Origin: Allolobophora icterica
Taxonomy: Eukaryota; Annelida; Clitellata; Crassiclitellata; Lumbricidae
Reading direction: 5' to 3'
DNA length: 64,000 nucleotides
NCBI GenBank assembly: GCA_963556255.1
Contig: OY744613.1
Coordinates: 50,217,745-50,281,744 of the forward strand
Part shown: one piece after another, positions 1,198 through 48,660 of the stretch
Numbering within the stretch: position 1 is the stretch's first letter
Layout: each line of letters opens with the position of its first letter
Translations under genes and position numbers: made by a program
The notes under the pieces: model-generated
The model's input: only the letters and a program-made list of their open reading frames with translations
Database searches by the model: none
What the model was told of the DNA's origin: nothing

Positions 1198-1850
1198 GGT
1201 TTACGCTTTCCATGTTTTCGGTCCATAGTGTTAGTATTGTGAAATGTTTGGTCAGAGAGTGGGGGATTGGAATTCAGCAAGGGAATTGTGTAGCTTTCCA
1301 TGTTTTCGGTCCGTAGTGTTATGTAGAATTGTTAAATCTTTGATCAGAGAGTGGTGGATTAGAAATCAGCATAAGAATTGTGTGGCTTTCCATGTTTTCG
1401 GTCCGTAGTGTTAGGCCTATGTAGAATTGTTAAATCTTTGATCAGAGAGTGGTGGATTAGAAATCAGCATAAGAATTGTGTAGCTTTCCATGTTTTCGGT
1501 CCGTAGTGTTATGTAGAATTGTTAAATCTTTGATCAGAGAGTGGTGGATTAGAAATCAGCATAAGAATTGTGTGTGTTTCCATGTTTTCGGTCCGTAGTG
1601 TTATGCAGAATTGTTAAACCTTTGGCCAGAGAGTGGTGGATTAGAATTCAGCATAAGAATTGTGTACAGCTTTTCATGTTTTCGGTCCGTAGTGTTAGAA
1701 TTGTTACATTTTTGGCCAGAGAGTGGGGGATTGGAATTCAGCAAGGGAATTGTGTAGCTTCTCATGTGTTGGGTCCGTAGTGTTAGAATTGTTAAATTTT
1801 TGACCAGAGAATTGGGGATTAGTATTGAGCAAGGGAATTTGACTTGACAC
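1198..1850 (+). repeat. Satellite block, about 7 units of 87-99 bp
   Basis: Units start with (G)CTTTCCATGTTTTCGGTCC near 1205, 1292, 1384, 1483, 1578, 1671 and 1758. Each continues with a TAGTGTTA...GAATTGTTAAAT segment and AGAGAGTGG.GGATT. One unit alone carries six extra bases GGCCTA at 1414-1419. The block lies inside the MULE. No coding sequence is supported here; the open frames are by-products of the repeat. Confidence 0.85.
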
Positions 1851-2744
1851 TTGACACTTGTTTATTTGGTAACCAAACTTTACAGTTAAAGCAGAAACAT
1901 GAATTATTATTATATTCCAAATTTTGGCTACAAATGACCCCGCTACAAGGGCCACCTGGGTAGTAGTACAGTAAGTGGAAAGCAGTCAATCATCAATCAT
2001 TCTTAACTCAATACTTAATTAAAGCCTGTAAGTATAATTATCATTGTACAATGTTTTCACTGTTCATAACAAGAACTTAACTAACGCCAAGATAACATAA
2101 CCTGTGATCAATCATGTGAACATTTATAATAATTCCGTGGATTAAACTTTTAGAGAAAACCTCAGCTTATTCATGACCTAAATACATACTTTCATGCCAA
2201 ATTAGCCCACACACATATATGCACACTTATACCCACTTGCACCCAAGCGATACAACCTACTTATACACCTGAAAGCACTCATACCTTTTCATAGCCCTAC
2301 ATTATATGCATGCGTGTCAACAACACACATACACTCTCACATACATACACGCAACACGCATACAAACACTTAAACAAACATACATAGATACATACAGATT
2401 AGCACATGTCCACACCAAATTGATTACACAATCTGCAGAGGAGTAAATTAACCCTTCTGTAAAATATATCAATTCATAAAATGTGACGTGACAGTACATC
2501 CGTATGATGTATTATACAGTGCATTTAATATGCAATAAGATAGAGGTTCCCCAATGAAACCCTTAAGAGATTATCTAACACAGTTGAGAAGTAAAATACT
2601 TCATTGTAATTGAAAAATAGTTCACATCAATGCATCTGTAAATTAGGTAATATCCGTGCATTCACAGTAGGCTACATCATTGCATTCCTAGGACAGGTTG
2701 CGACAACACAATCATTAAACAAGCTGTACAAAATTTAAAAAAAT
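1851..2744. other. Non-coding stretch inside the MULE
   Basis: I see no gene here. The part from about 2200 to 2400 is rich in ACACATAC-type simple sequence. The remainder is AT-rich unique-looking sequence. Confidence 0.6.
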
Positions 2745-3087
2745 AAACAATGCGTCAATGGTGCATGTTACACCAATGCCTCAACAGAGCAGGTTTCACA
2801 GAGTGATTATGAATTAGATACTCCTTTGCACTATAGGAGAGACTACTAACTAGGCTACAGTGTAGCAGATTACACATGTAATAATAAGCGAAGGCAGTGT
2901 TAATCCGATAACTATAAACAATGCATCAATGGTGCATGTTACACCAATGCCTCAACAGAGCAGGTTTCACAGAGTGACTATGAATCAGATACTCCTTTGC
3001 ACTATAGGAGAGACTACTAACTAGGCTACAGTGTAGCAGATTACACATGTAATAATAAGCGAAGGCAGTGTTAATCCGATAACTATA
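2745..3087 (+). repeat. Tandem duplication, 2 x 171 bp
   Basis: Copy one (2745-2915) and copy two (2916-3086) are nearly identical, differing for example by GCG/GCA near the start and ATTAGATAC/ATCAGATAC in the middle. The high similarity indicates a recent tandem duplication within the MULE. Confidence 0.9.
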
Positions 3088-3119
3088 GCAGTCACCGGCA
3101 TTTTAAGAAGCAAATCCCA

Positions 3120-5235
3120 ACAATCAAATCAAATTGGATCAGAATTTTTAGCTATCAACCAGGAGTGAACTTTTCTTTTAAATAAGTGCATATTGGAGAC
3201 TCTGCGGATCTCTTCAGGTAGTGCATTCCAAGCTGAAGGACCTGTGATTCTAATCGAGTATCTACGGGAGTTAGTGCGTGCAAAAATAGTTCGAATGAGG
3301 GATGGATTTCTGTTGTAGGAGTGAACATCAGCAGTGAAAGTAAAAAGGTTATTATATTTTTTGGGTAATGTTTTAAATATGTAATGGTGCATAAACTCAT
3401 TGATCTGTTTTTGTTTAATCTGGTCAAGTTTTAATACTCGTTAGTCAGTGAATAAAGGGTCCGTATGAGCAGAATAAGAGGAGCCTGCTATGATGCACAC
3501 AATTCTTTTTTGAAGTGTTATTACTTTGTGCAGTCGATGAGCATAGTTAGAACCCCAAATCTTTGTGCAGTAAGCAAGATAAGGATAAATCAAAGTATAA
3601 TATAAAGTCTAACTTTTATAGGTATTAAGTAAGAAACTCGAGATATAACACCTATGTTTTTTGCTATTATAGGAGGCTATTTTCTCTATATGGTCCTTCC
3701 ACGTAACAAACTGGTCTATGTAAACACCCAATCATTTGGCAGAGGTTACTTGTGGAATTTCCACAGTATCCATTACAATTTTACCTGTTTTAAGAGGTAA
3801 TGATTTCCTGTGAGATCCGAACAATATGTAATTGGTCTTTTTTAAGTTCAAGGATAATTTATTTACTTTGAACCAAATCATTAAATTTATAAGCTCTTTA
3901 TTCATCATGCTATACAAATCGTCATAAGAACCATGTGAAAAGAAGACATTGGAATCATCAGCAAATAGTATGAAGTGAAGAACTGACGATGCATTAGGTA
4001 GGTCATTTATATATAGTAAAAATAGAAGAGGACCTAGAATTGACCCCTGTGATACACCATACTTAATTATTCTGAATTTAGATGCCTTATTATTACATTT
4101 TACCTGTTGGTAACGCGAGGTAAGGTAATCTTTAAACCAGGATAGTGCAATTCCCCTCACACCATATCTTTCCAACTTGCATATGAGGATGTGATGATCC
4201 ACAGTATCAAAAGCTTTTGATAGGTCTAGAAATAATCCTATGGAATGAACATTATTTTCTATGGCTTGTGTTAGTTTGTCATGCATATCGATAACTACCA
4301 TTGCTGTCGAGTGCCCCGACCTGAACCCATGTTGGGAATGAAATAAGATATCAGATTTTGATACATAGTTATATAGTCGTTGATACATGACTTTTTCAAG
4401 AAGCTTCAAGAAGAATGGCAATATGGATATAGGCCTATAATTTTCAAGCTCGTCCCTGTTTAAAGATGGGGATAATAGTAGATCTGTTCATGTTATTGGG
4501 AACTACGCCAGTTGCTAAAGAACAATTTATTATTTCCCAAAGTGGGTTTGCTAACATTTTAAGGTTAGGACTAATAATACTTGGGTCAAGCAAGTCAGAC
4601 CCTTGACTGCGAGTTATTTTAAGAGTACCGTTGATCTCAAGTAATTCCTCAGGAGAGGTTGGGAGGGCTGCAAGAGTTCAAAGGTGCTGGAGTAAGATAT
4701 TCCAGGGGTGAATCATTTGAGGTGGGAATCTTTGATGCTAGGTTATGTGCAATACCTGTAAAATAATTATTAAACTCCTCAGCAATCTCTTCATTGTCAG
4801 TAATTAACCTGCCATCCCTTGTGATGCTTTCTACTAGAGATTCAGAGGGCTTAGCATTAATTATGGATTTAATGATGTTCCAGGTTTGTTTTATAACATT
4901 ACTATATTTAGTAAACTGAGTGGCATAAAACAATTTTTGAGCCATGATCTTAATTGATTTAAATTTGTTTCTATATATAAGAAATTTGTTTTTATTACTC
5001 AAAGTAGGTTTTTTTTATATATTTTAAATATAGATTGTTTTTTTCCTGCAGGACTTAAGTAGGCCTTTTGTCATCCAAATATGGTTCATTGAGGATCTGC
5101 GCTTTATTTTGTTAGTTAGTGGAAATGCTTGGTTATAAATCCCCGTAATTATCATCAAAAAATTATCGTAAGCCTTGTTCGGATCATTTAAATTACAGTA
5201 ATCATAGACTATGGTAACGTCCTGCTGCTCAGTAG
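3120..5235 (-). mobile_element. CR1/Jockey-group LINE, RT half, 5'-truncated
   Basis: The minus strand encodes a contiguous but broken non-LTR retrotransposon ORF2. In order it shows the linker before the RT (4649-5230), fingers/palm (3732-4421 and just upstream), the thumb and connecting region with WGSNYA and LQKRIV motifs (about 3430-3730), and the C-terminal domain with ITGPSAWNALPEEIR (3129-3392). The endonuclease half is missing. At about 5235 the sequence changes abruptly into a different LINE. Confidence 0.8.
3732..4421 (-). pseudogene. LINE reverse transcriptase, palm domain
   Basis: This open frame of 229 codons is the core of a non-LTR reverse transcriptase. Visible motifs are SQHGFRSGHST, LDLSKAFDTVDHHIL (first catalytic Asp), YGVSQGSILGPLLFLLYINDL, and the catalytic FADD box, followed by the thumb motif WFKVNKLSLNLKKTNYILF. 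FADD in place of YADD is normal in this group. The frame is interrupted on both sides by stops and shifts, although protein similarity continues through them. An isolated active-site segment cannot transpose, so I call it a pseudogene. It forms part of the LINE at 3120-5235 and carries no host function that I can see. Confidence 0.8.
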
Positions 5236-6712
5236 TATTCCTCCCATTTCGTATTGGAATTTCTTTATTGGTTTTTCCCATGTGTATAACTGAGCATTTC
5301 TCTGTGATGAACATCATCTGCCAATCCTCGGCCCAACTGAAGAATATATGCCCTAATGTTCCTTTTGGCTTCTTAAACAATTTATACTTGTGTCCCCAAG
5401 TTGCCTTGTTTGCCTTGTGCTAATTCAAAGAACCTCTTCCATTGCAGTGCTTCCTTTCCATTGATAATCTTATAGGCTTCGATTAGATCTCCTCTGCTCC
5501 TCCTTCTCTCCAATGTTGTCAATCCACATCTTTTCACCCTTTCTTCATGGCTCAAACCTTGTAGCCCCAAATCATTTTTGTAGCTCTTCTTTGCACTTTC
5601 TCCAGTTTTCCATGTCCTGTGTCAGGTATGGATTCCATCCCTGGATGCAGTATTCCAACTGTGGCTTAACTAGTGATTTGAACAACCTCATTGTTGTATC
5701 CTTGTCTCTGGTGTTTATGCTGAGTTAGCCTTTTTTGATTCCTCAGCACATTGCCTTGAAAGGTTTGCACTCTTGTGCATAGTCACACCCAAGTCCCTTT
5801 CTTCAACATTCACTTTCAACACCTTACCCCCGTTTCATATGAGACATGTTGTTTCTCTTCCCCATATGCATCACTGAGCACTTTTCCAAATTAAAGAGCA
5901 TTTGCCAGTCTTATGACCATCTGAACATTCTTCTTAGATCTTCCTGCATGGTATGGTATCTGTGAATTATAAAGCACCTCTCACAGTGTGAACCATTCAG
6001 AGGCACTCTCAGCATTACAGAAAAGACTTTAAACTATGAACAAGAGAGAGACAGAACCTAACAAGTAGAGTCCCACGCAGTACCAAGGGAAAGGAGTTCC
6101 ATAGACCTCAAAGAAGTCCAACAGAATTGTCAAACACGAATGGCCTCTGGTAAATCCATGTTCACTGCCATTTATAATATCATGCGCATTTAAATGCTCC
6201 ACTATATTATCCTTAATAATTCTTTCCATGACCTTGCACACCACACTGGTTAAACTGACTGGTCTGTAGTTACCTGTATCACTTCTATTTCCCTTTTTAA
6301 ACAACATTTGGCACTATGAGTGCATCCTTCCATGTCATGATTCATTTCCATCTGACAACCTGATGATCACTAGTACTAAAATGCTCCCCCACACTCACAT
6401 TCTAAACCATATATTCATCTGCTGTTAGAGCTAAGTTCAAAATGTTGTTTCCTCTGGTTGGCTCTGTGACATGCTGCTGCATAAACATGGCACTAACAAA
6501 ATCTATGAGAATCTTATGTTCTTCTCTCTCCGCTTCCAAGTTTACCCAATCAATATGATAGTTGAAGTCTCCCGTAATTAAGGACGTTTCCTTATTGGCC
6601 ATGTCTAGTAGTTTGCATAATCCTTGGTCAACTTCTTCAGTGGTAACAGGTACCCTATAGCAACTTCCCACAAGCATCATAGATTTGTTAAATTGAATTT
6701 CACACCAGACAC
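5235..6712 (-). mobile_element. CR1-like LINE with internal deletion
   Basis: On the minus strand the order is: an AP-type endonuclease part with the GDFNYHIDW motif (6402-6680); RT fingers reading NYRPVSLTSVVCKVMERIIK and GFTRGHSC (6029-6307); then a jump straight to the thumb (DWQMLFNLEKCSVMHMG, about 5860-5940) and the C-terminal RRRSRGDLIEAYKIING (5382-5570). The RT catalytic centre is deleted at about 5950-6029. A second thumb fragment (DWQMMFITEKCSVIHMG) at 5240-5340 is fused to the neighbouring LINE. Confidence 0.75.
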
Positions 6713-9018: not shown

Positions 9019-9026
9019 AATTTGAC

Positions 9027-9425: not shown

Positions 9426-9472
9426 AATTCGACTTAGAGAGTACAACAGATGCAGTTTTTTTTATCAATGAA

Positions 9473-20175: not shown

Positions 20176-21200
20176 CCCTCAGGCTACCAAGGTTTTTTTG
20201 TGACATCGGCTACCAAGGGGGGGGTGGTTACCACCCCCCCCCCCGGAATTTCGTGTTTGGTTTAAGATATCATATCATGTAATACAGCATTAGATTCAGC
20301 ATTCATTTCTGAAAAGAATGGTATATTTAGTTGTAAAATATATGAATGCATCTCGAAATTATATAGTTTTTAACAAAGGCACCGGTCCATTTAACGATAT
20401 ATGATATTATCCCACACAATTTGTACTATTTGGATAAAAAGATATAAATGATGTGTGTTTTGATTATGAACTATGTATCCAAGAATATTCTAAATATAAT
20501 GAGGCTTAAATTTCAACAATACAAACTATTCCAAAGTCTGTTTTAGTTACAGGCAAAACCTAGGCTAAAGGCATGCAGCTATATCAACATGAAACAAGAA
20601 ATTATGTAATTTTTCCCGGCAGTCAAAAACGTCAGTGGTCCTTGCAGTTATTGCAAGTTACTTTCATTGTTTTGTGCGAATGCTTCCTGCAAACCGGCTT
20701 CTTGAACACTTCACAGCACTGCTTTACTCTGTTAGTATTCTGCTTCAACTGTTTATAGCCCTTCCCCATACCCAACCATATCGGTTTACGTTGTGATGTT
20801 GCAACAGTGATTTTCACACTGAAAAAGAGTATTATTATTCATTATGATCACTTCCGGTTATCAAAAGACAAACAACTAAGAACCAAATATATCCCTACAT
20901 TCCCTCTAAAGAATGGCATAGTTGTTTCTCTTCCAGAAAGAATAATGAATACCTTTATAGTCGACAACAGCTAACAGCTGACAAGAGAAATTCCTGATTT
21001 CATAAGTGGTACCTAGGCTATATCGGGTATAACTTTTTTATGGCGTGGGATATCATCACGACTTTTACCTCAAAATTTGCACAAATGGACCCCCTACAGC
21101 TACCTAAAATGTCAAAATTATATTCCATGTGCTAAAAAAAAATTTTCCAGAAAAACGTAGGGGGGGGGTGGTAACCACCCCCCCCTTGGTAGCCCGAGGG
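20176..21200 (-). mobile_element. piggyBac-type element in the ZNF gene, 1025 bp
   Basis: It is flanked by TTAA at 20172-20175 and 21201-21204. The ends are CCCTCAGGCTACCAAGG and (reverse complement) CCCTCGGGCTACCAAGG, each followed by a subterminal TGGT.ACCACCCCCC palindrome. TTAA targets with CCC ends are the piggyBac signature. Internally it keeps the C-terminal part of a transposase (20632-20817). It interrupts a zinc finger between Leu and Asn. A partial relative lies at 24674-25223. Confidence 0.9.
20632..20817 (-). pseudogene. piggyBac transposase C-terminal Cys-rich domain
   Basis: A 61-codon frame reads KPIWLGMGKGYKQLKQ and ends with a cysteine/histidine cluster, CCEVFKKPVCRKHSHKT..VTCNNC. 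The spacing resembles the C-terminal cysteine-rich (RING-like) domain of piggyBac transposases, which binds the element ends. The catalytic DDD domain is absent, so the copy is non-autonomous. A sister frame with a few changes is at 25008-25202 (plus strand). Confidence 0.6.
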
Positions 21201-24673: not shown

Positions 24674-25223
24674 CCCTCGGGCTGTAACCACCCCCCTAGG
24701 TTTTTCTGCCAAAAACTTTTAGCACATGGAATATAATTTTGACATTTTGAGGTAAAAGTCGTGATGATATCCCACGCCATAAAAAAGTTATACCCGATAT
24801 AGCCTAGGTACCACGTTTTGGAATCAGGAATTTCTCTCGTCAGCTGTTAGCTGTTGTCGACTATAAAGGTATTCATTATTCTTTCTAGAAGAGAAACAAC
24901 TATGCCATTCTTTAGAGGAATGTAGGGCTATATTTGCTTACTTAGTTATTTATTTGTCTTTTGAAAACCGGAAGTGATCATAATAAATAATAATACGCTT
25001 TTTCAGTGTGAAAATCACTGATGAAACGTCACAACGTAAACCGATATGGTTGGGTATGGGGAAGGGCTATAAACAGTCGAAACAGAATGCTAACAAAGTA
25101 AAGCAGTGCTGTGAAGTGTTCAAGAAGCCGGTTTGGAGGAAGCATTCGCACAAAACAATGGAAGTAACTTGCAATAACTACAAGGACCACAGATGTATTT
25201 GACTGCCGGGAAAAATAACATAA
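24674..25223 (+). mobile_element. piggyBac-type element, truncated copy
   Basis: It starts with CCCTCGGGCTGTAACCACCCCCC and is collinear with the reverse complement of 20630-21190. It contains the Cys-rich transposase end at 25008-25202. The TTAA expected at the left is now TTAG, and the other end is cut off at the ATCT microsatellite. It serves as an outgroup for the copy inside the ZNF gene. Confidence 0.75.
25008..25202 (+). pseudogene. piggyBac transposase C-terminal fragment
   Basis: A 64-codon frame (KPIWLGMGKGYKQSKQNANK...CCEVFKKPVWRKHSHKT) is nearly identical to the minus-strand frame at 20632-20817. One ligand Cys is Trp (KPVW) and another is Tyr (CNNY). This indicates decay without selection on metal binding. 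No catalytic domain is present. Confidence 0.6.
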
Positions 25224-25497
<274 letters not shown>

Positions 25498-27066
25498 ATG
25501 AACTTATATAGCGCCCCTTCGAGAAATCTACTCAGTGGCTCTTCCGACCCAGGCCCGGTCAAAAAGAAAGGTCTTAAGAAGTCCATAGAAAGTACCTGAG
25601 AGGTCTATAGGGAGAGAGCGGAGGGAGGGATGGAGGTCATTCCAAGCGGTAGGACCCATCACGGAGAATGCCCTACGCTGCGCCATAGCAGTATGCGCAT
25701 AGAAGACAGCAACATCACCCCGGGAGGCCGAGCGCAAGGCACGGCCCCCCGCACAAGCGGAAGTTAAAGTAAAGAGCTCGCAGAGGTAGGCCGGGGCCCG
25801 CCCTAGGACACAGTGCCACGCCATGGTGGAGACCCTGTAATGAATGCGATGCTGGGCAGGTAGCCAATGGAGAACGTCTCGCATAAATTCAGAGACGTGG
25901 TCAAACCTGGAGATACCGCCAACCAAGCGTGCAGCCGACCGCAAAACCCTCTCTAGACAAACAATGCGAGTCTGAGGAAGTCCAACAAAGAGAGAGGAGC
26001 AATAATCCAAACGATTGACAATAAATGCATGTACCAGAGTGGAAGCCGTGGAGAATGAAAGGGAGCGGGAGACAACACGCAGTTGGCGCAGTTGATAATA
26101 ACAAGCACGAGTCAGTTCATGAATGTGCTTAGAAAAGGAGAGTTCTTGGTCAAGAATGACACCTAGGTCACGAACAGAAGTAGAAAAGGTAAAGGAGGGG
26201 AATTCAGTGGCAAGAAACGTCAAATCAAGCTTGGCGAGTTGTTGACGAGTGCAAAACCATAATGTACTGAGTCTTCGAAGGATTGAGACGCAGACGATTA
26301 GATGACATCCAGGCATTAAGGGTGGAAGTAGCATCTGACACAAGCCGAACAGCAGCAGCAGCCTCATTGCAGAGTAGTGAGTGTAAGACTGGAGGTTATC
26401 GGCATAGCTGTGACTCGAAAGCGAGCAGGATGCAAGAAGAGAGCCTAGATCAGCCGTGAAGAGAATGTAAAGTAGAGCACCAAGAACAGAGCCTTGGGGG
26501 AGGCCAGAAGGAGCAGGAAGCCAGAGGGAACGAGAAGAGCCAAAGACAACAGAGGAGGAACGATCAGAGAGGTAGGATGCGAGCCAGGCAAAAGGTAAGG
26601 CCGTGATTCCAAACGATAAAGAAAGGAGGCGCAAGAGAATATCATGATCGACGGAGTCGAAGGCGGCGCTCACGTCGTAAAGGGCCAGAAGAGTAACCTC
26701 GGCTCTATCAATGGCACAATAGATATCAGAAAGAAGATGATGAAGAAGGGTATCAGTAGAGTGCCCCTTGCGAAAGCCAGATTGGCATGGAGGGAGTAGC
26801 TTGTTAGAATCGAGATAGTTAAACAATAATTGCCTAGCTACCAACTTTTCAACAATTTTAGATATGAAAGTGACATTAGCTATAGGCCTATAGCTAGATG
26901 CCGTAGACGGGTCAAGACCCGACTGCTTGAGAGTAGGCGTGATGATCGATCTTTTCTGCGAGGCAGGAAGAACTCCTTCACGACGGGATGTATTGCAGAG
27001 AAGAGTTAAGAGCGGAAGGAGAATGTCGATCGCTTCGCGAATTAGAAACGAGGGTAGAGGATCGAG
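25498..27066 (-). mobile_element. L2/CR1-group LINE, 3' half
   Basis: The minus strand runs from GVLPASQKRSIITPTLKQSG and SSYRPIANVTFISKIVEKL (about 26840-27060) through the RT to the C-terminal domain and a short 3' end (GGCGCTATATAAGTTCATG). The endonuclease half is missing. Shorter relatives are at 30783-31300 (minus), 40990-41341 (minus), 47495-48110 (plus) and 49965-50210 (minus). Confidence 0.8.
25528..26844 (-). pseudogene. LINE reverse transcriptase
   Basis: An open frame of 438 codons carries QSGFRKGHSTDTLL, LYDVSAAFDSVDHDIL (catalytic Asp), SGLPQGSVLGALLYILF, and YADN where the family has YADD, so one catalytic Asp is replaced by Asn. Between about 26230 and 26400 two compensating frameshifts hide the usual WMSSNRLRLNPSKTQ segment, which is still readable in another frame. 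The thumb and C-terminal parts (FSVMGPTAWNDLHPSLR) are normal. The frame extends upstream without Met to about 27063. The loss of YADD and the shifts make it inactive. Confidence 0.8.
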
Positions 27067-27587: not shown

Positions 27588-28684
27588 CAGTGGCGTAGAA
27601 AGGTTTATGGGGGCCCTTGTGCAGAGCTTCCATGGTGGGCCCCTTGAACCCTCTTCGATTTGAAACAACAAAAACGCTGTGCAAAAGCGCTGGGCCTTTT
27701 GCATATTTGCACCGTGAGATATAGACCCCTATGCAAATATCATAAATCGCACCGTAAATTAAATATTAATTAAATAATTACATTTTAATTATTTCCTCCG
27801 ATTTATTTTTAGAAAACATTTTTTTATTTCCCAAGCTAACATAAAAATTGAACTAGGCATAATTAATCTAAAAACATTGTTCCATCTGCTAACACTGCTA
27901 AAGTGAATTATCCACACTTAAATTCTGTCAAATTGTGAAACAGTTGCTTTGGTTGATAAAAATAACGAAACAATTTAACAAATTGGACAAGTGTTTAGTC
28001 TACGGTAGGTCTAGTTTAGAAAGAAGAATCAGAAAATTCCGAAGAGTTAAAACGTTCGTTTGCCAGCCTTCTCTTGTGCAAAAAATATCTACCACTTTTG
28101 AAGTGTCAAGCTTTCTGGCATGTTCATTTTCAATTGACAACGTTGCCAAGTCGCTCAGCCGCTCTTCTGACATTGGAAATCGTAAATAGTTTTGATTAGC
28201 TTCAATTTTGAAAATGATGGTTCACACGTCGCAACAGTCATTATGAAATTGTCAATTTAAATTAGGCCTACACAAGGTACTACAAAGTAATAATATTCCA
28301 TACTGCATAGTAAAAAATATCAGCAAAAATTCTATAAATTTTAAACATGTCGCCGTCGGTCATGACATCAATATATTTATACGTCAGTAAAACTGCTTCC
28401 GTCCAAAGACTGCATAAAGAATTTATTATGGCACACTGGTTGTTTACTAAATCATGCATTTGGACATTCCAGCTTTAGAATCAGCCAATAAAACTATTGA
28501 GTCGAGTCATTTGAGTGTGTATACAGAAGCCTACTGTGTACGCTGTTGCTAACTTGCTTTACATGTAGATTTAGGTCTACTTGCATTTTAGGCTAAAAAT
28601 GACTCTACTCGCTGCCAGGGGCCCTCTAACCGCCGGGGGTCCTTGTGCACTGCACAACCTGCACAACCCATTGCTACGCCTCTG
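27588..28684 (-). mobile_element. hAT element in the small ZNF gene, 1097 bp
   Basis: The ends are CAGTGGCGTAG and (reverse complement) CAGAGGCGTAG. ATGCAACT at 27580-27587 and 28685-28692 is a perfect 8-bp target duplication. Inside, the minus strand keeps the hAT dimerisation region. Without the insertion the ZNF frame reads SFAEDATLMLHMRTHT. Confidence 0.92.
28010..28265 (-). pseudogene. hAT transposase C-terminal (dimerisation) remnant
   Basis: The minus strand reads MTVATCEPSFSKLKLIKTIY and then, after a one-step shift, RFPMSEERLSDLATLSIENE and ARKLDTSKVVDIF. This is the signature of the C-terminal dimerisation domain of hAT transposases (CERSFSKLKLIK...SEERL..LALLSIE). The catalytic domain is missing. 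It belongs to the element at 27588-28684. Confidence 0.75.
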
Positions 28685-29813: not shown

Positions 29814-30485
29814 GGTAAACGTAGGCCTACGTTTTAGCGTAATTAATTAGTGGACGAAATGTCCACGTTCGCTTTAGCGTAATTAATTATTGGAAGCTGT
29901 ATGAGCGATGAAAATAGAAATCAAACTGGAAGCTGCATGAGCGATGAAAATATGAGTCAAACTGGAAGCTGGCTAAGCGATGAAAATGGAGATCAAACGA
30001 GAAGCTGGGTGTGCGAAGAAGGTAATCCTCCAGGTTAGGTGCGTTAATTATATGTAGGCTACACTCTTATAGTGGATAGTTATCAGCAATTGTGATGACT
30101 GATGAAAATATAACTCAAACTAGAAGTTGGATGATTGATGAAAATATTATTGAAACTAGAAGCTGGATAAATGATGAAAATATTGCTTAATAAAACGGAA
30201 ACTAGAAGACTTTGGAATTGCGATGAAACTATATCGTTTAACGCCGATATCATTGCCGTGGATGAGCGATGAAAACATGTCATAGTAAAACTTGAAATAG
30301 GAGCTGGATATGCGATGAAAATGAGCTAAAACTGGAAGCTGGATGGATGAACGATTAAAACGTGTAATATTAAACTAAACTAGAAGCTGGAAGGTGGATG
30401 AAATAATTATTTACGCTATTCATTTTATCGAAATCCTGCCAATAATTAGGCCTAATTACGCTAAAGCGTACGTTTAGGCCCTACC
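29814..30485. mobile_element. Core-repeat element, end type 1, copy 1
   Basis: The ends begin GGTAAACGTA...CGTTTTAGCG and finish CGCTAAAGCGTACGTTTA...CC. The interior has about nine copies of the core words AACTGGAAGCTGGAT and CGATGAAAATAT. The target duplication is TCCATATGG on the right (30486-30494) and TCCATAT-AC-GG on the left (29803-29813). Compared with 41397-42044, it has extra GGCCTA or similar at four places (29824, 30057, 30449, 30477). Confidence 0.85.
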
Positions 30486-33615: not shown

Positions 33616-34925
33616 ACGTATGCTGCTGGACTTATGTGTAAAAGAAGCTGAAACGGCTACTATGAACTTAAGGAACAGAGAAAATATCTTCAATGGATTT
33701 ATGGACGTATACGAGGGTCGAACACTGAAGAAGCATAAAATGCCTTTAACAACTGTTTTATTGAAGGTTATCTCTACATGACGTAACATCTCCTGCTCAA
33801 CATCGCAGTCAGTTTCTTCTATGGTACTTCCCTGTGCTTGCAAAGTTTATCTTTCCAAAAGATGGATGATCCTAATTAGAAAACGTTCTTCATTCATGTA
33901 CCAGTTTCAACATAATTTACTTCTTCGGATATTTATGCTTTTGCCCATGTTTTTTTCATAAGTGCGTAGTCATCATTAAGCTCTTCAGAGAAATATTGTG
34001 TTTCGACAGCAACGAAATGAGACAGCTGCTAATTGTGATAACTGAACCCCACTGTATGGGATTATTTGCTTAATGACCTAACTAAAGTAGCAGTTTAAGG
34101 GACACGTACACTTTTATTTGTTGCCCACACTGGATAATGTGAAAACATTGCACACAACAAGAAAATTACGAACACGTAGGCCATAGGCCTACTACTTGCA
34201 ATTTTAATGAAAACGTGAGTCTTTTTTTTTGTTCAAGCGAATTAACTTTAAATGCAGACTGCAGAGAATTCCGAATTCGTATTTACAAAAGTTCTTCATG
34301 CAAAATGTTTCAAATGCCTTTTGTATTTTTTAAAAGCGAATTTGCTCAGAATTTCTTACCAAGACATGCCTCGTGGGACCTAATACAAATGTCGCAATGT
34401 GGAAAATACTTTCCACAGGTGCTGAAGTCGCTGGCACACACCGTAGCATTCAAGCACTGGATTTAAATGTACAAATCTCGAGCCTTTTTAAAATCCTCCC
34501 ATGGTTTATCTGGATACGGAAATTTCGCCCCCGGAAGATTCGCCCCCGACATTTCGCCCCCGGGAAGATTCGCCCCCCGGAAGTTTCGCCTCCGGGATCT
34601 ATGATGAAAATGTAACTAGAAGACTAGAAGTGGGATCTATGATGAAAATGTAACTAAGACTAGAAGCTGGATCGACGGGGGCGAAACTTCCCGGGGCGAA
34701 ATGTCGGGGGCGAATCTTCCGGGGGAGAATCTTCCGTAGGCGAAAAGTCCTAGAACCGGTTTATCAGACCGTCTGGCTCGGAAAAAAGTCTCGGCAGGGC
34801 TTCCAGATACATCATAACTTAGTTGCTGCTGTCGTCGGGTGTTCCTGACCAAGAAGATTTTTATCCGTCCGTAGATGCATTTAGGCTTGATAATTTTTTT
34901 ATTTCTTGAATTTTGTTAAATGACT
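33614..34925 (-). repeat. Secreted-peptide module, copy 2
   Basis: Collinear with copy 1 (29014-32507 without its piggyBac). The peptide frame is dead: the ATG is TTG, the TATA box is lost and stops are present in 33960-34210. It carries the foldback element 34511-34757, absent from copy 1. Confidence 0.85.
34511..34757. mobile_element. Core-repeat element with TTCGCCCCC arms, 247 bp
   Basis: GGTTTATC at 34503-34510 and 34758-34765 is an 8-bp target duplication. Copy 1 of the module has the uninterrupted site (ATGGTTTATCAGACC, near 32312). Inverted arms of about 70 bp consist of TTCGCCCCCGGAAGA-type repeats. The centre is two copies of the shared core (ATGATGAAAATGTAACTA, AGAAGCTGGAT). Confidence 0.92.
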
Positions 34926-35775: not shown

Positions 35776-36080
35776 AATTTTGTTGGGCAATTCTACTCGA
35801 TTAGTACGAATAGTACCAACAAAAGTAGATTTCTTTGTCTTCAGAACATCTCTAGCTTGGGCCAGCGAGGTGCAAAGATTATCAGTGGTAATGTTGCGAC
35901 CTCCACATTCAAGAGGTTGTATGAGCTGACGGACAACGTTTCCTCCCAGATCTTTGGTTGAAGCTGCATCAGCGCTTTCTTTGCTGCAATATATGCTGGC
36001 GTTGTAGGCCTACACTTACTTCGTTTCAGCGTCGCAGCACATTCATAACTTCATGCCGTATTTTGCCGGCTTTGACGGCT
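35776..36080 (-). pseudogene. piggyBac transposase DDE-domain fragment
   Basis: The minus strand reads KPAKYGMKL, CCDAETK, AYNASIYCSKESAD, DLGGNVVRQLIQPLECGGRNITTDNLCTSL and FVGTIRTNRVELPNK. This is the catalytic core of a piggyBac transposase, including the conserved Asp of ITTDN. Stops interrupt it near 36008 and 36050. Removing the six bases GGCCTA at 36007-36012 restores the family word VYNASIY. The likely 5' end of its element is the TTAA with CCCTTCGTCGGGCG at 36660-36683. The 3' part is missing. Confidence 0.8.
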
Positions 36081-36683: not shown

Positions 36684-37358
36684 TGCACTGCAAATGAATT
36701 ACCAGTTTAAGGGTCATGTAAAATTTTATTTGTTGCACACACTGGATAATATGAATAGGCCTACATTGCACATTATACACTGTGTGCAACAAATAAAATT
36801 TTACATAACTTTGAAACTGGTAATTTAATTAGGTCATTAGGCAAAGAATTCCATACAGTGGGTTCAGTGATCACAATAAAACAGCTGTCTCATTCCGGTG
36901 CTACCGAAACATTTATATTTCTCTGAAGATCTTACGACGTGACTATAAGCTTATGACATAACATTGACAACAGCATAGACACCAGAAGCAGTAAATTATG
37001 TTGAGACTGGTACATGAATGAAGAATGTTTTCTAACTAGGATAATACGTCTGTTGGAAGGATCAGTGGTTAAAGTGGTTTTGGTGAGCAGTGGGAACGCC
37101 GAAGAAGAGTTTCATTGGAACGCATGCGTGAGCAATGGGAACGCAAGCAAAGAATTTCGAGAGCAGTGGCAACGCCGTCCCCACCGTTCCTACTCCACTT
37201 TAACCCATGGGAAAGATAAACTTTGCAAACACAAGGAAGTACCACAGAACAAACCGATTGAGCAGGAGATGTCACGTAATGTAGAGATAACCTTTAATAA
37301 ACAGTTGTTAACGGCATTTTCTGCTTATTAGTAAGGAATAGAAGTCTCGATATTATTA
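36684..37358 (+). repeat. Secreted-peptide module, copy 3 (start of duplicon B)
   Basis: The relic frame TGNLIRSLGKEFHTVG and KQLSHSGATET is readable at about 36800-36930, without start codon or signal peptide. AATAAA persists at about 37292. A hairpin made of two inverted copies of ATAAAATTTTACAT...GTGCAACAAA surrounds 36720-36815. A 147-bp MITE is inserted at 37063-37209. Confidence 0.75.
37063..37209. mobile_element. Short MITE with 8-bp target duplication
   Basis: The ends are CAGTGGTTAAAGTGG and (reverse complement) CATGGGTTAAAGTGG. The flanks GGAAGGAT (37055-37062) and GGAAAGAT (37210-37217) differ by one base. Copy 4 at 49575 has the empty site. The interior repeats the word CAGTGGGAACGC. 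Confidence 0.75.
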
Positions 37359-37359
37359 T

Positions 37360-37450: not shown

Positions 37451-38202
37451 TACCCAGCAAACACACCCGCACGGGTCCCTTGTGGGTTTCATCCGGTTTG
37501 ACGGTACGGCCTTCTCGCGGTTTTTGACCACGGTTTGCGTAAGGGACCCTTACGGTCCAGCCCGCGTCGGTGGCGCCTCCTACCGGTATTCGTATTTCTA
37601 CCGCCGGTCCGCCATTTTGTGTGCCTGCCGTTTCGAATGTACACATATTTGACAGATCGCGATGTGTTTCTGTGAAAAGTAAGATTACGTTATATTTATT
37701 ATAGGCCTACTAATGAACCTATATCTGCGTATATTAACAGTTTCTGTAAATGCTGTAGGCCTATTTAATTGTGGTCGGGATAGACGAAACGGAGATTGCA
37801 GTGGGTTAGGGTCAGGGCTGTAGTGGTAAAATTAGAGGTGAGTACACGCTACGGGTTAGTTTTCCGAAACAAATTAGAGGTGAGTCTACGCTACAGTATT
37901 TTGTGAGTATACGCTACAGTATTTTAATATAAATAAATATAACTATTTGGGAGGTGAGTAGGCCTATACGGTCTCTAGAGGTGAGTACACACTGTATAGT
38001 GTATACCCGCGTATACCCTCGACTACAGCCCTGGTTAGGGTTATGGACTGTACGGTAAACTTGCGCTATGAGGGTCCTAATGTTATGGTCTGACCCAAAT
38101 TCAAGGGGCTATGTATTACTGTGTGACAAGAGGTCGCACCTTAACACTAGTTAGCGCCCAGACACCAATAAGGCTATTTAAATGAAAGCACATCGACAAA
38201 TA

Positions 38203-41341: not shown

Positions 41342-41396
41342 GCAGGTAATTTAGAGAAACAATTTACCAACCTATAAATTATACAGACAATTTACC

Positions 41397-42044
41397 GGTA
41401 AACGTACGTTTTAGCGTAATTAATTATTGGACGAAATGTCCACGTTCGCTTTAGCGTAATTAATTATTGGAAGCTGTATTAGCGATGAAAATACAAATGT
41501 AACTGGAAGCTGGATTAGCGATGAAAATATAAGTCGAACTGGAAGCTGGATTAGCGATGAAAATGGAGATCAAACGAGAAGCTGGATGTGCAAAGAAGGT
41601 AATCCTCCACGTTACGTGCGTTCATTATATGTACACTCTTATAGTGGATAGTTGCCAGCAATTGTGATGACTGATGAAAATATAACTCAAAATAGAAGTT
41701 GGATGATTGATGAAAATAGTATTGAAACTAGAAGCTGGATAAATGATGAAAATATTACATAATAAACGGAAACTAGGAGTTGGAATTGCGATGAGACTGT
41801 ATCGTTTAACGCCGATAATTATCATTGCCGTGGATGAGCGATGAAAACATTTCATAGTAAAACTTGAAATAGAAGCTGGATTTGCGATGAAAATGAGCTA
41901 AAAGTGGAAGCTGGATGGATGAACGATTAAAATGTGTAATATTAAACTGAACTAGAAGCTGGAACGTGGATTAAATAATTATTTACGCTATTCATTTTTC
42001 CGAAATCTTGCCAATAATTAATTACGCTAAAGCGTACGTTTACC
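41397..42044. mobile_element. Core-repeat element, end type 1, copy 2, 648 bp
   Basis: CAATTTACC at 41388-41396 and 42045-42053 is a perfect 9-bp target duplication. The ends GGTAAACGTACGTTTTAGCG and (reverse complement) GGTAAACGTACGCTTTAGCG match for about 34 bp. The interior has nine or more copies of the core. Duplicons A and C give the empty site. The 9-bp duplication is Mutator-like. Confidence 0.95.
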
Positions 42045-42404
42045 CAATTTACCAACCTTACCGTCCTCTTCTTCAATTTCCATTACAATACGGCTTTGAA
42101 TAAAAGATTTTTTTAATTTTATTGCGAAATCATGGCGAACGACATTCCACTGTAAGATGGCAGGAATGATGTTTATCCAACTTCCATTTAAAGTGTTTTA
42201 TACCCATGGTTAACGCCATTTTGATGAGATTGACGAAGTCAGTATTAATAACTACGTTTTCTTTATTACATTCGTTCGAGTGAGTTATATTAACTTCTCT
42301 TTCTAATTTTCTCTTGAAACATAGTTTATTAAATTTATATTTAATAATTAGAAGTCGACAAAAGAAAATTGCTATATCAGTATCAAATCTGCGCTCGTGG
42401 ATAG

Positions 42405-43110: not shown

Positions 43111-43461
43111 CCTCCATCACCGTGCTCATGCTCTTCTATCTATTGCCCCCAGACTGCCAATTATTCTCGACCTAAACGACAGCCACCTTAACAGCTGCTC
43201 TGCCTCCTCTTTTGATCTGGCCCCGTGGAAACTGGACTCGAAAATCTTTTGGACTACTCTAAAGTTGGAAACCTCCTCTGATTTGACGCCGCGCTTACCT
43301 ACTAAACACCAGATGAGAATTTCATACTGTAATTTTAATGCACGCGAATTTGTACCAATTGTAGAAGAACACACAAGCACAATGTGTGTGACAATATGTT
43401 TTCCTGCCTGAATCGTTAACGCGTGGAGCGAAACAAACTTTACCAGAGAAAAGACATATAA

Positions 43462-44739
43462 ATGCAATCTGTGTCACAAAGCATTTGCACAGCTATGTCA
43501 TGTGAAAGACCATACAAGATCCACACTGGAGAAAAGCCATGTGCGTGTGAAATATGTCACAAAGCATTTGCAACTAACAGTCTTCGAGAATGCCATAAAA
43601 CAACCTACTCTGGAGAAACACGATACAAGTGCAATTTGTCCAATAAATCATTTTCACGCCTTAGTAATCTTCATGTGCATTCAAGAACCCACATTGGAGA
43701 AAAGCCGTACAAGTGCAGTTTATGCAGTGCAACATTTGCACATAAAAGCTGTCTCAAGTACCACACAAGAGGCCACAATGGAGAAAAACCTTATACGTGT
43801 AACATATGTCACAAAACATTTGCACATCAAAGTAACCTAACAAACCACACAAGAACCCACACTGGAGAAAAACCATACAAGTGCAATTTGTGTGAGAAAG
43901 CATATGCACAGAATTTTCGTCTGAAGAGGCACTCCAGAACCCACACAGGAGAAAAACCATACCTGTGTAGGATATGCAACAAAACATTTGCAAAAAATGG
44001 AGATCTCAGAGTTCACATAAGAATACACACTGGAGAAAAACCACACAAGTGCAAGTTATGCAATAAACTCTTTTCACGCCTTAGTAATCTTCATGAGCAT
44101 TCAAGAATCCACACTGGAGAAAAGCCTTACATTTGTCGTTTATGTAATGCCACATTTGCACATAGAAGCGGTCTGAAATACCATACAAGAGTCCACACTG
44201 GAGAAAAACCATACATGTGCGATATATGTCGCAAAGCATTTACACAGCAAGGTCACCTGAAAGTTCACACAAGAACACACACTGGAGAAAAACCATACAA
44301 GAGCAATTTATGTGAAGAAGCATATAGGCATATTGATACTTTAGAAAAACATATAAGATTCCACAGTGCTGATAAAGTTTACAAGAATAAATTTCATCAT
44401 ACCAGTGTGTCAGGCATGACTGAGAGATACCACAATGATGATTCGGAGTTGTCAACAAGAAAAGAAACTATACAAGAAACTTTGTCTAAGCATAACAAGA
44501 AAACCATTCAAAGTGAAAAACAACTTTATGCAGGTCAGTCAACAAGTAGTGTTGCTGTAAATAATTCGTCTATGAGACCTTATGGCTGTGGACTGTGTGA
44601 CGAGATGTTTGAAATTGGAAAAGAGTTCATGGAACATTGTGAAGTTCACTACTGTGAAAATCGCCAGAAAGACACTTTTCTGGAACTCTTTGAAATGCAT
44701 CTCTTGAGATACCTTCCTCGAACAAGTAAAGCAATTTAA
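43462..44739 (+). CDS. C2H2 zinc-finger protein, ZNF B
   Basis: An open frame of 425 codons encodes a probable nuclear DNA-binding protein. Ten fingers of 28 residues lie at about residues 27-307. Three are damaged: finger 1 ends in Tyr instead of His, finger 2 has a Ser for Cys (YKCNLSNKSF), and finger 10 reads YKSNLC. The tail carries DKVYKNKFHHTSVSGM and a C2H2 unit ([24 protein letters not shown], about 374-396), ending [23 protein letters not shown] stop just before the ATG makes 43462 the only possible start. Its closest relative here is ZNF C (shared KLFSRL.NLHEHS finger). Loss of zinc ligands in several fingers suggests relaxed selection. Confidence 0.72.
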   Translation: MQSVSQSICTAMSCERPYKIHTGEKPCACEICHKAFATNSLRECHKTTYSGETRYKCNLSNKSFSRLSNLHVHSRTHIGEKPYKCSLCSATFAHKSCLKYHTRGHNGEKPYTCNICHKTFAHQSNLTNHTRTHTGEKPYKCNLCEKAYAQNFRLKRHSRTHTGEKPYLCRICNKTFAKNGDLRVHIRIHTGEKPHKCKLCNKLFSRLSNLHEHSRIHTGEKPYICRLCNATFAHRSGLKYHTRVHTGEKPYMCDICRKAFTQQGHLKVHTRTHTGEKPYKSNLCEEAYRHIDTLEKHIRFHSADKVYKNKFHHTSVSGMTERYHNDDSELSTRKETIQETLSKHNKKTIQSEKQLYAGQSTSSVAVNNSSMRPYGCGLCDEMFEIGKEFMEHCEVHYCENRQKDTFLELFEMHLLRYLPRTSKAI

Positions 44740-47000
44740 TTCAAAAGTTACTCTTTTCTATGTGTTAATGTTACACCTAGTAAAGTTGATTAGCATTTGC
44801 GAATATGTGCAGAGATGAGTTTCTTCATTGGTGAGAAAGACAGAAAATCAATAAGTTCTCCTGTCTTCAATGCATGAACCAGATCAATACAGATGTCATA
44901 TTCAGAAAAGAAGAACATGAATAGGGAAAGATCATTCTATACGATAAGGAGGGCTAATGAGTGAAAATCGGAATCAGAATTAAATTCTTAAAATGGTGAA
45001 AAGTTTCATAAGTAAACATAAGAAACAAAGAGCATCTGAAGTCTCATTGACTCATGTTTTCAATAAAAGAGGGAAATATATTGGAAGGTCAATGAATAAG
45101 TGAGGAGTTTCTGTGCTTTGGTGAAGGAAGATTCAACACAGGTTATTACAATGGAGAAAATACATTTGACCTGAACTGATCACTTACTCTTTTAGAATTC
45201 ACTCTTCAAGATAGTTCGTGAAGGAACAATTGAAGGAAGGAAAATGGCATGGGATCCTAGATGAATTCGTTTCAGTTTGATGAGTTATAGCAAAGCAGAT
45301 GGTGATAAAAAAAAACTGTCTAGGAATGGCATAGACAAGAGACATTTGGTTCATTGGATTCCTGGACGTTCCTGAAAGTAGAGCACTGAAGACGTTTAGC
45401 AGACTGGACATTTTGTTCAACATAAGTTACAGCATATTATTTTGAATATTTGCTTCCAAGTTTCCTTGGAGATGACAGACCTTCATATCTTCAGCAAAAT
45501 ATTACACATGTTTCTCTCGCACCAGAACAGGACACCTCTTTGTCATAGTACCTTTATTGAATTCTTTACGTGATGACCTAGTTAACTGTGCACCACAGTT
45601 TCATTTACAGCGTTGCTTCTTCACGATTGACTAATGTTTTTCTCTAGTAAACATATTTGACGTCACACTTTACTTGCACAGTGAAGGGAGCAGATAAACC
45701 ATGTAACTGTTGGAAATGCTATACTCACAGTTTTTATTAGGTGACAGTGTTAGCAGGACTTTCCATTGTGTCTCGCCTTCGGGTTCCTATTCAAATATAT
45801 CTTTCATGAACTCAAAAATTGAGCAATACTATGTTTAGTGGAACCGTCCTAGCTAAGCGGGATCTCGTTTCCCTTTTATCAGCCTATTGACTAGCTATTG
45901 TAGCCAATAATGCTAATTAACGTTGTACTTGTAAATGCTAAAAGGCTTAAATACAGATTGATTTGATTTGATTTGATCATGCCATGCATTGTTGTATTCC
46001 TGCTCCTTTGATGCAAGCGAATCCGTGATGGTCATTGGTCATGGTAACTGGGTTATAATCTATATATGGCACCACATTTACGTGTGTGTTTTTCACATAA
46101 CACAGAACCATCAGATAGACACGGTCACAGGCATGCATACATCTGTCCCTCTATGGTCTCCTAAGAACCGCATATTGTTCTTCGTTCTCCACTCGATCTC
46201 TGGCTCTTGAAGTTTGTGAGGTAGGACGAAAATCGGTACTTGTCGGTTTCACGACCACCAAATTCGTGTCGGTTTCACGACAACCAAATTTTCATCGTTC
46301 ATCCCGCTCCTAGTTTAATTAACATTTTGATCATTAATCCCGCTTCCAGTTTAATTTACATTTTAATCGTTCGTTCCGCTTCCATTTTAATTTACATTTT
46401 AATCGTCATCCCGTATCTAGTTTAATTTACATTTTAATCGTCATCCCGTATCTAGTTTAAATTTACATTTTAATCGTTCATCCCGCTTCCAGTTTAATTA
46501 ACATTTTAATCGTTCATCCCGCTTCCAGTTTAAATTAACATTTTAATCGTTCATCCCGCTTTTAGTTTAATAACGTGAAATATAAAGTTAACTTAATGTT
46601 GTGGTGTTTTCTTTCGGTGTGTTTGGTGGTCGTGAAACCGACAAGTAGGCCTACCCGAAAATCGTACGCGAATTTGCCTCTGCAAACTTTTTTTATATTT
46701 CAGACTTCCATAGGGCCTAACTTTTGATCTAGAGCAGCTACACACAATTAGTTTTCGGTTTTGAGTTCTAAGCAATGCACAGATTTACACAGTTAAGCAA
46801 CATTTGTTGTCTTTGATATGAACAATTAACCACAGTTGTTGAAAAGTGTCAAAACAGTTTTTGTTTGAATCTTCGTATCTTCAGCAAAGTAAGTAACATT
46901 GTAAAAGTTACCTAAGCTACATTGCTGTTAAATGTATCAGAGGTTGAAGTAGGTTCCATTGAAATTCAGCTGGTCAAATAAAAACAGAACAATCAAACAT
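44740..47000 (+). repeat. 3' flank of duplicon B
   Basis: Collinear with 12979-14596 and 54457-56600. It includes the (GATTT)n retro-tail at 45957-45978 and an inserted core-repeat element at 46236-46655. No gene is seen. Confidence 0.75.
46236..46655. mobile_element. Core-repeat element, end type 4, 420 bp
   Basis: CGAAAATCG at 46227-46235 and 46656-46664 is a 9-bp (at least 8) target duplication. The ends read GTACTTGTCGGTTTCACGAC and (reverse complement, without the extra GGCCTA) GGTACTTGTCGGTTTCACGA. The interior repeats TTTTAATCGTTCATCCCGC and TTCCAGTTTAATT, the inverse of the shared core. A and C lack it. Confidence 0.9.
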
Positions 47001-47494
47001 CATTCATAAAACAATATACATTAGGCCTATAGCCTATGTCATAATGTATACTATATATAATGAAGTCATTCACTCTGCATCAAGAATTCACCAAAAAATT
47101 TATAAAGGTGTTTTCAAACTTAGCCTACTTAACCTGGAACGACAAATTTGCATGAAAAGCCCTAAACATAGCTTAGGCCTAACTAGCGATATTCAATCAA
47201 AATGTGTAATATGGAGAAGAAATTTCTCTTAAGCTCCAGACATCAAAATATATCCCAAAAAAAATATAAGTAAATGGCCATTATCTGGCTGAACAAAAAT
47301 TAACTCATCTAGTGTAACAAAGAGCCTTGTAGCCTAATCTTTCTAGCTCTTGAAACTGGGGTTAACGTAAAAGAAATACTTTCAAAATAAAAATAATGGC
47401 TTACAGAAGTCAGTTATTCGGTAAGCAAAGTAAACAGGTTGACAAATTTCATCAAATTAGTATAACCAGCTTACCCGTAGCTGTTATTATCAAC
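47001..47494 (+). repeat. Duplicon B, region beyond the shared 3' flank
   Basis: It matches 56600-56778 plus 57726-57913 and 58814-58880 in duplicon C once the Helitron and the LTR-like insert are removed. No gene. Confidence 0.7.
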
Positions 47495-48110
47495 TGCGCC
47501 AGTTGCGGCTTATTTCTCGTTCTCTGTCTCATGATGCTACTGTCATCCTTATACATGCTTTTGTAACAAGCAGGTTGGATCACTGCAGTGCGATCTTGGT
47601 TGGTCTGCCGCTTGGATTGGTTGGCCGCCTCGACCGGGTTCTTCGGTCAGCTGCTCGGGTCATTGGACACATCCCTAAATATGCCCCTATTTCTGCATAC
47701 ATGCAGAAATGCCTGTTTCGCAGCGTATCTGCTATAGGGTTGCTGTACTGGTATGGCGCTGTCTCTTAGGCTGTGCCCCGGCCTATCTGTGTGAGCTCTG
47801 CCGCCCGGTCTCTGATTCAGTTGGTCGGCGTGCTCTTCGGTCTTCTTCCGGGGGAGAACTTTTAGTCCCTCGGGCTCGCTCCACAATTAGGTAACGCCGG
47901 GCTTTCTCTATAGCTGGGCCCTCAATTTGGAATGGTCTTCCATTAGAGGTTCGCCTTCTCCCTAGGGGTAACACATCTGCTTTTTACAAGCTGCTCAAGT
48001 CTAATCTCTGTTGCCGTGGCTGGGCTGGGAGCGCTTCTGAGTAGGTTTCTTGAAGGTGCGCTATATTAAATTTTTGAATGAATGAAATGAATGAATGAAT
48101 AAAATTTAAA
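47495..48110 (+). mobile_element. LINE 3' end with (GAAT)n tail
   Basis: The plus strand reads LRLISRSLSHDATVILIHAFVTSRLDHC, LDRVLRSAARVIGHIP, CLLGCAPAYLCELCRP and IAGPSIWNGLPLEVR in shifting frames. It ends GGTGCGCTATATTAAATTTT plus GAATGAATG repeats. It is the same group as the LINE at 25498-27066. Confidence 0.8.
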
Positions 48111-48119
48111 TGTTACACA

Positions 48120-48660
48120 GGAGACCCAAAGGGGTGAAAGGTCCCGCTGAGAACGTTTGCGTAGGACACGATGTTTTTCGGCGAACTGTGAATGGTGAAG
48201 TTGAGTGATGATGATCTTAACTATCAAAAAACTAAATAGGCCTAATAACAATAAAATAACCAATAATGAAACAAAAATACAAAACTGCAACAAATGCACA
48301 TGTACTGTGCAACATTATGCTCAACTAACAATACGAGTCGTAAAGGTCATTGCTAGATGATATAGTTTTATATAATCTGTAGTATTAGGCCCAGAGAATC
48401 GGTATAGGTGCTACAGACAAGAAATTATTCCATAGGTCATTTATATATCTAGAATATTATAACTCTCCTTGTTGAACGTGGGTGCGCAGCTCTCGTTTCA
48501 AGAGCTGAAAAGAGGGTAATATACGAATACTATAACTTCTGTTCTCTGGCATTATAAACTAAACAATTTACGGACACGAAAACTATTCACTTAATTTTTC
48601 AGTTTAAAACTAACAGAAAGGGGCTATAGTTATTGATGTTCTCTAATCAACTTGACTATG
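48120..48660 (+). repeat. Duplicon B, distal module
   Basis: Collinear with 35208-35775 and, in its first part, with 58915-59036. It marks the right end of duplicon B; the next secreted-peptide module begins at about 49222. No gene is seen. Confidence 0.7.

Follow-up and report, generated by a model that had tools for sequence, protein, structure and literature searches.

Transposons of the Tc1/mariner type duplicate a TA and leave footprints of 2- or 3-nt overhangs (as set out in excerpts of PMC3878927 and PMC7827188), those quoted in the former excerpt being C(A/T)GTA for Sleeping Beauty, T(T/A)A for Hsmar1 and ACTA for Himar1. We describe here a class of micro-insertions in a 64,000-nucleotide stretch of the annelid Allolobophora icterica (hereafter the window, C13:50,217,745-50,281,744 in an assembly of 1,117,693,669 bp and 328 contigs), most of which create the palindromic octamer TAGGCCTA. 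The comparison of related copies shows a recurrent heritable mutation at TA that duplicates the TA and leaves about two G and then about two C between the two copies, one of the two sides having in other cases 1, 3 or sometimes 4 bases. The scars are thus like the footprints in those excerpts in the duplicated TA, in the few bases between the two TAs and in a symmetric target preference. They also share a short A/T target site duplication with piggyBac which, according to the excerpt of PMC3878927, uses TTAA rather than TA and excises without a footprint.

Literature searches on the motif and the process found no description among the matches listed, as judged by title. We tentatively propose an undescribed TA-specific germline process in which about two G are added per opened end before rejoining, and which has left some 0.3 to 0.4 million scars and been recently active in hot spots. 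The scars would then record either a hidden element of great activity or an enzyme system of the host.

Filled and empty copies of the same sites

The first-pass annotation of the window listed 13 exact, TA-duplicating additions. All 13 strings are present at the positions given, and eight of them have, within the window, a paralogue that is cleanly empty (1412, 29822, 30055 with GGC, 30447, 36756, 46711 with GGGCC, 47174, and 47330 with GCC), while four are weaker (34184, 46646, 48237 and 30475). Self-alignment of the window yielded clean gaps of TAGGCC, TAGGC, TAGCC and GGGCCTA. The sites are listed below, no strand being assigned except to the last two, which are codon sites and not insertions.

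1412..1419, TAGGCCTA: present in a single unit of a 92-bp satellite; six of the seven aligned units are without the insert.
28263..28270, TAGGCCTA: outside every paralogue alignment.
29822..29829, TAGGCCTA: left end of a core-repeat element; both other window copies empty.
30055..30061, TAGGCTA (GGC insert): in the 29822 element copy; 41.4-kb copy empty, 51.2-kb copy deleted there.
30447..30454, TAGGCCTA: in the 29822 element copy, close to its right end; two other copies empty.
30475..30483, TAGGCCCTA: right tip of the 29822 copy, where the 41.4-kb copy has CGTTTAC; weaker, at the element border.
34184..34191, TAGGCCTA: 29.5-kb paralogue six bases shorter, with two substitutions beside the gap; weaker.
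36005..36012, TAGGCCTA: in a broken gene read as piggyBac-like, the two sides of which are in different frames.
36756..36763, TAGGCCTA: empty in the 49.3-kb paralogue.
37702..37709, TAGGCCTA: no paralogue alignment; near 37756 and 37959.
37756..37763, TAGGCCTA: no paralogue alignment.
37959..37966, TAGGCCTA: likewise unaligned to any paralogue.
46646..46653, TAGGCCTA: at the TA duplicated on the right of a 407-bp element that has terminal inverted repeats (TIRs); compared with the left TA (46237) only; weaker.
46711..46719, TAGGGCCTA: absent at 56.3 kb, where the paralogue has TA, and at 14.3 kb, where it has AA.
47022..47029, TAGGCCTA: TAGCCTA directly after; 56.6-kb paralogue without insert, alignment not clean; extra to the 13 events.
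47174..47181, TAGGCCTA: empty in the 56.75-kb paralogue.
47330..47336, TAGCCTA (GCC insert): empty in the 57.85-kb paralogue.
48237..48244, TAGGCCTA: 35.3-kb fragment has TA; A/T-rich repeat alignment; weaker.
4430..4437, minus strand, TAGGCCTA, not an insertion: TAT AGG CCT ATA codons of the YRPI word in a reverse transcriptase (RT) open reading frame (ORF).
26883..26890, minus strand, TAGGCCTA, not an insertion: TAT AGG CCT ATA codons of the YRPI word in a second RT ORF.

When paralogue states were compared over 242 kb, eight TAGGCCTA sites (seven of them in the window) had an alignable counterpart, which was exactly empty in four cases, differed by other indels or substitutions in four and was identical in none, against 6 empty and 147 identical among 393 other TA-N4-TA sites. 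The 114 clean gaps of 3-14 nt comprised seven of the form TA-G(n)C(m)-TA (one of them outside the window, at L021), 8 with some other TA-x-TA insert, 12 that were tandem duplications and 87 of none of these types; the TA-G(n)C(m)-TA class is prominent, yet other kinds make up most short indels.

A wider sample of one TA came from the core-repeat element at 41397-42042, a young family with 2,702 candidate places, of which the 40 scored were full copies, 98-100% identical. With exact flanks, ten inserts of 1-12 nt were found genome-wide at the TA of its left end, against 312 exact empty ends. Eight of these inserts belong to the class, namely GGCCTA three times (one being that of the window), GGCCTACGTA (the GGCC type and then CGTA), GGCTA, GCCTA, GGCCCTA and GGGCCTA, the other two being CGTA and CCCCGGTA; this agrees with the first-pass description of the additions as built of G(1-3)C(1-3) at TA. 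At a non-TA point three bases on, only two inserts were found genome-wide (in one case an added T, in the other the CGTA copy already mentioned) and neither was of the GGCC class, but the fixed flanks were 24 bases there and 19 at the TA, so that fewer copies could match and the two counts do not have the same base. Nine of the ten insert places were fetched, the tenth being that of the window. Five (L075, L076, L078, L079 and L082) aligned almost in full with the 41.4-kb copy, L080 gave a poor partial alignment, and L077, L081 and L083 gave none. The five aligned copies contained three further independent events, a GGCC in L078, a GGCCC in L079 and a GGC in L082.

A Tc1-like element of 635 bp at L045 (insert included) carries TAGGCC at AAGCAAG-TA-CCACT, where all eight fetched relatives are empty. 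Across 641 alignment columns it departs from the majority sequence of its family by 2 substitutions, as against 3 to 8 in the relatives and 43 in one of them, L074. Since the insert sits in a copy so close to the majority and eight of the nine copies are empty, the micro-insertion process has been recently active. L045 carries six TAGGCCTA in 2.2 kb. Together with the satellite, in which six of the seven units are empty, and the core element copies, these data bear out the earlier suggestion that the insertion is the derived state.

Abundance, target and clustering

In the window, TAGGCCTA occurs 16 times, the two codon sites included, against 0.36 expected under an order-2 Markov model (0.72 under order 3), and its excess is second only to that of a TAGATAGA-type microsatellite among the octamers with 8 or more occurrences. 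In the whole genome there are 273,201 copies in 1.12 Gb, or one per 4.1 kb, against 7,459 of the reversed word, which holds a CpG and is hence not an ideal control; TAGGCCCTA and TAGGGCCTA together amount to 65,378 (control 2,168). Once the order-3 background is removed, these figures would correspond to about 0.26 million GGCC events and 0.06 million GGCCC/GGGCC events and, with the three-base variants included, the total is perhaps 0.4 million.

Outside the window we used 18 stretches of 10 kb chosen blind (16 of them from 16 contigs, at 3.0 Mb in each, plus two others), with tandem repeats masked and order-3 expectations. These contained TAGGCCTA 34 times against 1.84 expected, TAGGCCCTA/TAGGGCCTA 9 against 0.57, TAGGCTA/TAGCCTA 27 against 13.3 and TAGGCCCCTA/TAGGGGCCTA 3 against 0.16, and showed no enrichment of TAGCTA (27 against 27.4), TAGGGCTA (2 against 2.1) or TAGGGCCCTA (0). 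Expressed as approximate excess over these 180 kb, the spectrum is 32 for GGCC, 14 for GGC/GCC, 8 for GGCCC/GGGCC and 3 for GGCCCC/GGGGCC, and nil for GC, GG/CC, GGGC/GCCC and GGGCCC, so that its maximum lies at two bases per side. The one-step derivatives TAGACCTA/TAGGTCTA were also enriched (14 against 3.3), and the 30 sites found in the 16 stretches, one per chromosome-sized contig, were spread over 12 of them.

Target choice was studied in 244 masked kb with 66 sites, from which two overlapping loci and the pair of codon sites had been removed; sites were included whether or not they were proven insertions, and the sample is biased in that L012-L019 were chosen for holding the word and L038-L046 for transposase matches. 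Among the 16 possible XY-GGCC-XY words only TA-GGCC-TA stood out (49 against 2.5 expected), the next highest count being that of AAGGCCAA and its complement TTGGCCTT (11 against 7.4), and none of the 15 other dinucleotides showed a comparable duplication. With both strands counted, 98 of the 162 occurrences of TAGGCC continue with TA. The claim that all the additions lie at TA is upheld by these counts, and the paralogues, the excess outside the window and the TA specificity concur in making TAGGCC insertion the likely cause of most TAGGCCTA, as had been anticipated. The first base outwards from the 66 sites was C in 52 cases (26 expected), T in 44 (42), A in 29 (41) and G in 7 (23.5; p 6e-9), a preference also seen when a CCTA-context control served as reference (p 8e-6, over 54 sites with the codon sites among them); the third base leaned to T (p 0.02), and the other positions were not significant. 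The target preference is therefore symmetric, R-TA-Y, with G-TA-C most favoured.

Clustering was assessed on a single 0.7-Mb stretch, C1:47-752 kb. After exclusion of three sites that seemed to belong to a tandem series, 16 gaps between TAGGCCTA sites were shorter than 500 bp (6.3 expected, P 4e-4), and 10 of 42 TAGGCCCTA sites lay within 100 bp of TAGGCCTA (1.1 at random). Because TAGGCCCTA co-clusters with TAGGCCTA on this stretch, we take the length variants to be products of one process. Pairs of TAGGCCTA only 11-20 bp apart were also observed there (e.g. 735307/735318), with five gaps below 50 bp against 0.7 expected.

Possible origins of the scars

The explanation we favour, with a probability of roughly 0.48, is that the scars are the product of a Tc1/mariner-type transposase. 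Such an enzyme would open TA with a 2-nt stagger, and the scar could be what the excision of an element with 5'-GG...CC-3' ends left behind, two terminal bases being kept on each flank, or a failed insertion trimmed back to two terminal bases per flank. Repair would then retain both overhangs, by fill-in or cross-gap synthesis, rather than anneal them, with slips of one base, and the source element may be rare, unsampled or extinct. The TA-only target, the symmetric flank choice, the variety of class inserts at the one TA of the core-element end and the recent event in L045 speak for this reading. A templated end of two bases would account for the sharp peak of the spectrum, for which a free tailing enzyme would account less well. 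Of the Tc1/mariner footprint idea already put forward in the first-pass annotation, the part concerning derived, TA-duplicating and TA-specific G(1-3)C(1-3) inserts stands, whereas no GG..CC element was found in the 242 kb and the families sampled, and the single-overhang product was not enriched.

Several observations weigh against this explanation. Both 2-base halves (4 bp) are kept here, instead of the one annealed overhang that the footprints of Tc1/mariner elements usually retain; the single-overhang product TAGGTA/TACCTA was not enriched either outside (50 against 55 expected) or in the window (15 against 22). The counts run to hundreds of thousands, and the GG ends are absent from the families examined. 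No TIR element with TA-GG..CC-TA ends passed our filter in 242 kb, a filter that leaves room for a low-copy family and for an 11-bp pair at 59636/60364, and the full TA-flanked elements with such ends that had been predicted were found neither there nor in the Tc1/mariner families read. The ends of five families of this type start with CAG (L038, L041 and L045), CGA (L039) and TAG (L043), and L040, L042, L044 and L046 lacked clear TA-flanked ends. The footprint words of the families read were not significantly enriched (TACAGTA 28 against 24.5, TACGATA 21 against 18.3 and TATAGTA 28 against 21). The spread of lengths is slightly broader in the window than outside (TAGGGCTA 3 against 0.8, TAGCTA 15 against 9.8), and clusters, some within less than 100 bp, can be tighter than the local hopping of the P element and Sleeping Beauty in the excerpt of PMC7827188. 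Finally, other TA-XYY'X'-TA palindromes are in mild excess (TACATGTA 16 against 4.3, TACCGGTA 5 against 1.3 and TACGCGTA 4 against 1.2), and GGCC may not be the sole inserted string.

Among these palindromes, TACATGTA is of modest frequency genome-wide, at 103,057 copies (control 55,934). At 49973-49978 there is one clean event in which CATGTA was added at TA, giving TACATGTA, relative to the 41.0-kb copy. On the C1 stretch its self-clustering was slight (5 gaps below 500 bp against 1.6) and only 1 of 47 sites lay within 100 bp of TAGGCCTA (1.25 by chance); on this stretch it seems not to belong to the TAGGCCTA process, and it was not counted as a sister footprint.

A transposase origin is favoured by the presence of predicted PF13358 (DDE_3) transposase genes, for which 150 matches passed the cut-off (150 scored of 1,803 candidates), several of them in open frames of 346-363 amino acids. 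A Tc1-like element at L043 (673-2259) has the end TA|TAGGGTGACTC and TIRs of 200 bp that differ at 2 positions, and is young since 17 further ends are 94-99% identical. This element, whose TIR starts TATAGGGTG, was considered as a source and rejected, its end being TAGGGTG after TA and not GG: 20 more end windows gave 17 matches, of which 15 extended to the tip and read TATAGGGTG in 14 cases and TATAGAGTG in one. Two inverted pairs of the window that start with TA-GG were also discarded, as the symmetry extends past the TA in both: the pair at 21014/24804, which lies inside arms of 480 bp, and, less firmly, that at 59636/60364. Eleven of the 150 DDE_3 matches, on eight contigs and including L046, lie in open frames of exactly 911 amino acids, an unusual size for what appears to be a young multi-copy element, and DDE_3 copies, matched on either strand, are arrayed together at G000:C3:43.86-43.92 Mb.

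The main rival, which we regard as unlikely though deserving of attention, is a host process in which TA is cut by a germline nuclease that leaves a 2-nt 5' overhang, fill-in follows, about two G are put on each 3' end by a template-independent polymerase, and end joining yields TA-GG|CC-TA. The G(n)C(m) geometry is what two G-tailed 3' ends would produce and, by simple arithmetic, the excess counts would fit independent sides bearing one (about 16%), two (75%) or three G (10%), with no need of a zero-G class; the hot spots, and a source element being found neither in the sampled DNA nor in the families read, point the same way. Tailing, however, should leave many zero-G ends, of which the unenriched TAGGTA/TACCTA give no sign. 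In V(D)J-type N addition, terminal deoxynucleotidyl transferase (TdT) and Pol mu make G-rich additions at both 3' ends, and the resulting G(n)C(m) joint is like that described here, but our joints are sharply of two per side and fixed at TA, and the broad spread of lengths (zero included) expected from N addition is replaced by a peak at two.

As to the nuclease, 2-nt 5' overhangs are known for Spo11 breaks (excerpt of PMC12918824), which are also alike in their hot spots (here, clustering in the sequence) and in acting in the germline; their end joining gives deletions, duplications or fill-in, GGCC being unmentioned in that excerpt. Spo11 as such is ruled out by the TA-only specificity, the 15 non-TA words not being comparably enriched. 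Spo11 is not known to be restricted to TA, and this, with the lack of duplication at other dinucleotides, tells against the host process. Telomerase healing (TTAGGG) would add three G plus T residues and was ruled out on that account.

Less probable still is some other TA-directed mobile DNA, be it a class of elements with 5'-staggered ends, whose fill-in would give GG plus CC, or an ultra-short unit that was itself the insert. It would explain the TA specificity, and the keeping of both GG and CC would be easier to reconcile with filled 5' than with 3' overhangs; no such element was seen in the 242 kb sampled, however, and we know of no TA-specific superfamily of this type. It is very improbable that the ancestral sites carried TAGGCCTA, as a binding site for example, and lost it through random 6-bp deletions. 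A palindromic octamer could indeed be a selected site, but the core family has 312 empty ends to 10 filled, the satellite and the Tc1-like copies are mostly empty (6/7 and 8/9), every length variant at the core-element end restores TA, and at none of the eight paralogous sites was the word identical; these empty majorities contradict the ancestral TA-GGCC-TA that the first-pass annotation had named as its own refutation. An assembly or library artefact, or a chance excess of the word, deserves the least credence of all, given the genome-wide spread, the enrichment of one-step derivatives and length variants and the target preference, and no evidence in its support was seen.

Indels of a single class at such a scale would offer a directly readable genome-wide record of DNA breaking in an animal germline, in which each scar is one event at a known TA with its repair outcome preserved. 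If they are transposon footprints, the past jumps of an otherwise unseen element become countable; if a host enzyme makes them, it is a new mutational mechanism. Scars at TA as such are of a known kind, and these would be new in kind if their source were not a transposon. They also explain a common palindromic octamer, which could otherwise pass for a regulatory motif.

Other features of the window and samples

The 407-bp element at 46237-46645 has perfect 24-bp TIRs, TA flanks and a 36-bp tandem repeat at 46288-46571. In the 92-bp satellite (1205-1839) there is also a difference between TA and TATGTA, the four bases being absent in three of the seven units; a TATGTA-type form is known for Tc1 footprints in C. 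elegans. Eleven IMG/VR contigs (L001-L011) contain three TAGGCCTA within about 80 bp, partly in tandem repeats; as several have tandem repeats at the match and L008 looks like a phage by its ORFs, they were set aside as uninformative. The window also contains C2H2 zinc-finger ORFs, one of them flanked by inverted arms of about 480 bp (20597-21076 and 24744-25228, 93% identical) that both carry TAGGCTA/TAGCCTA, at 21014 and 24800. Its two RT ORFs match RVT_1 and, on our reading of their sequences, are probably of the non-long-terminal-repeat type and of animal origin; a protein search with an RT ORF found 1,206 relatives.

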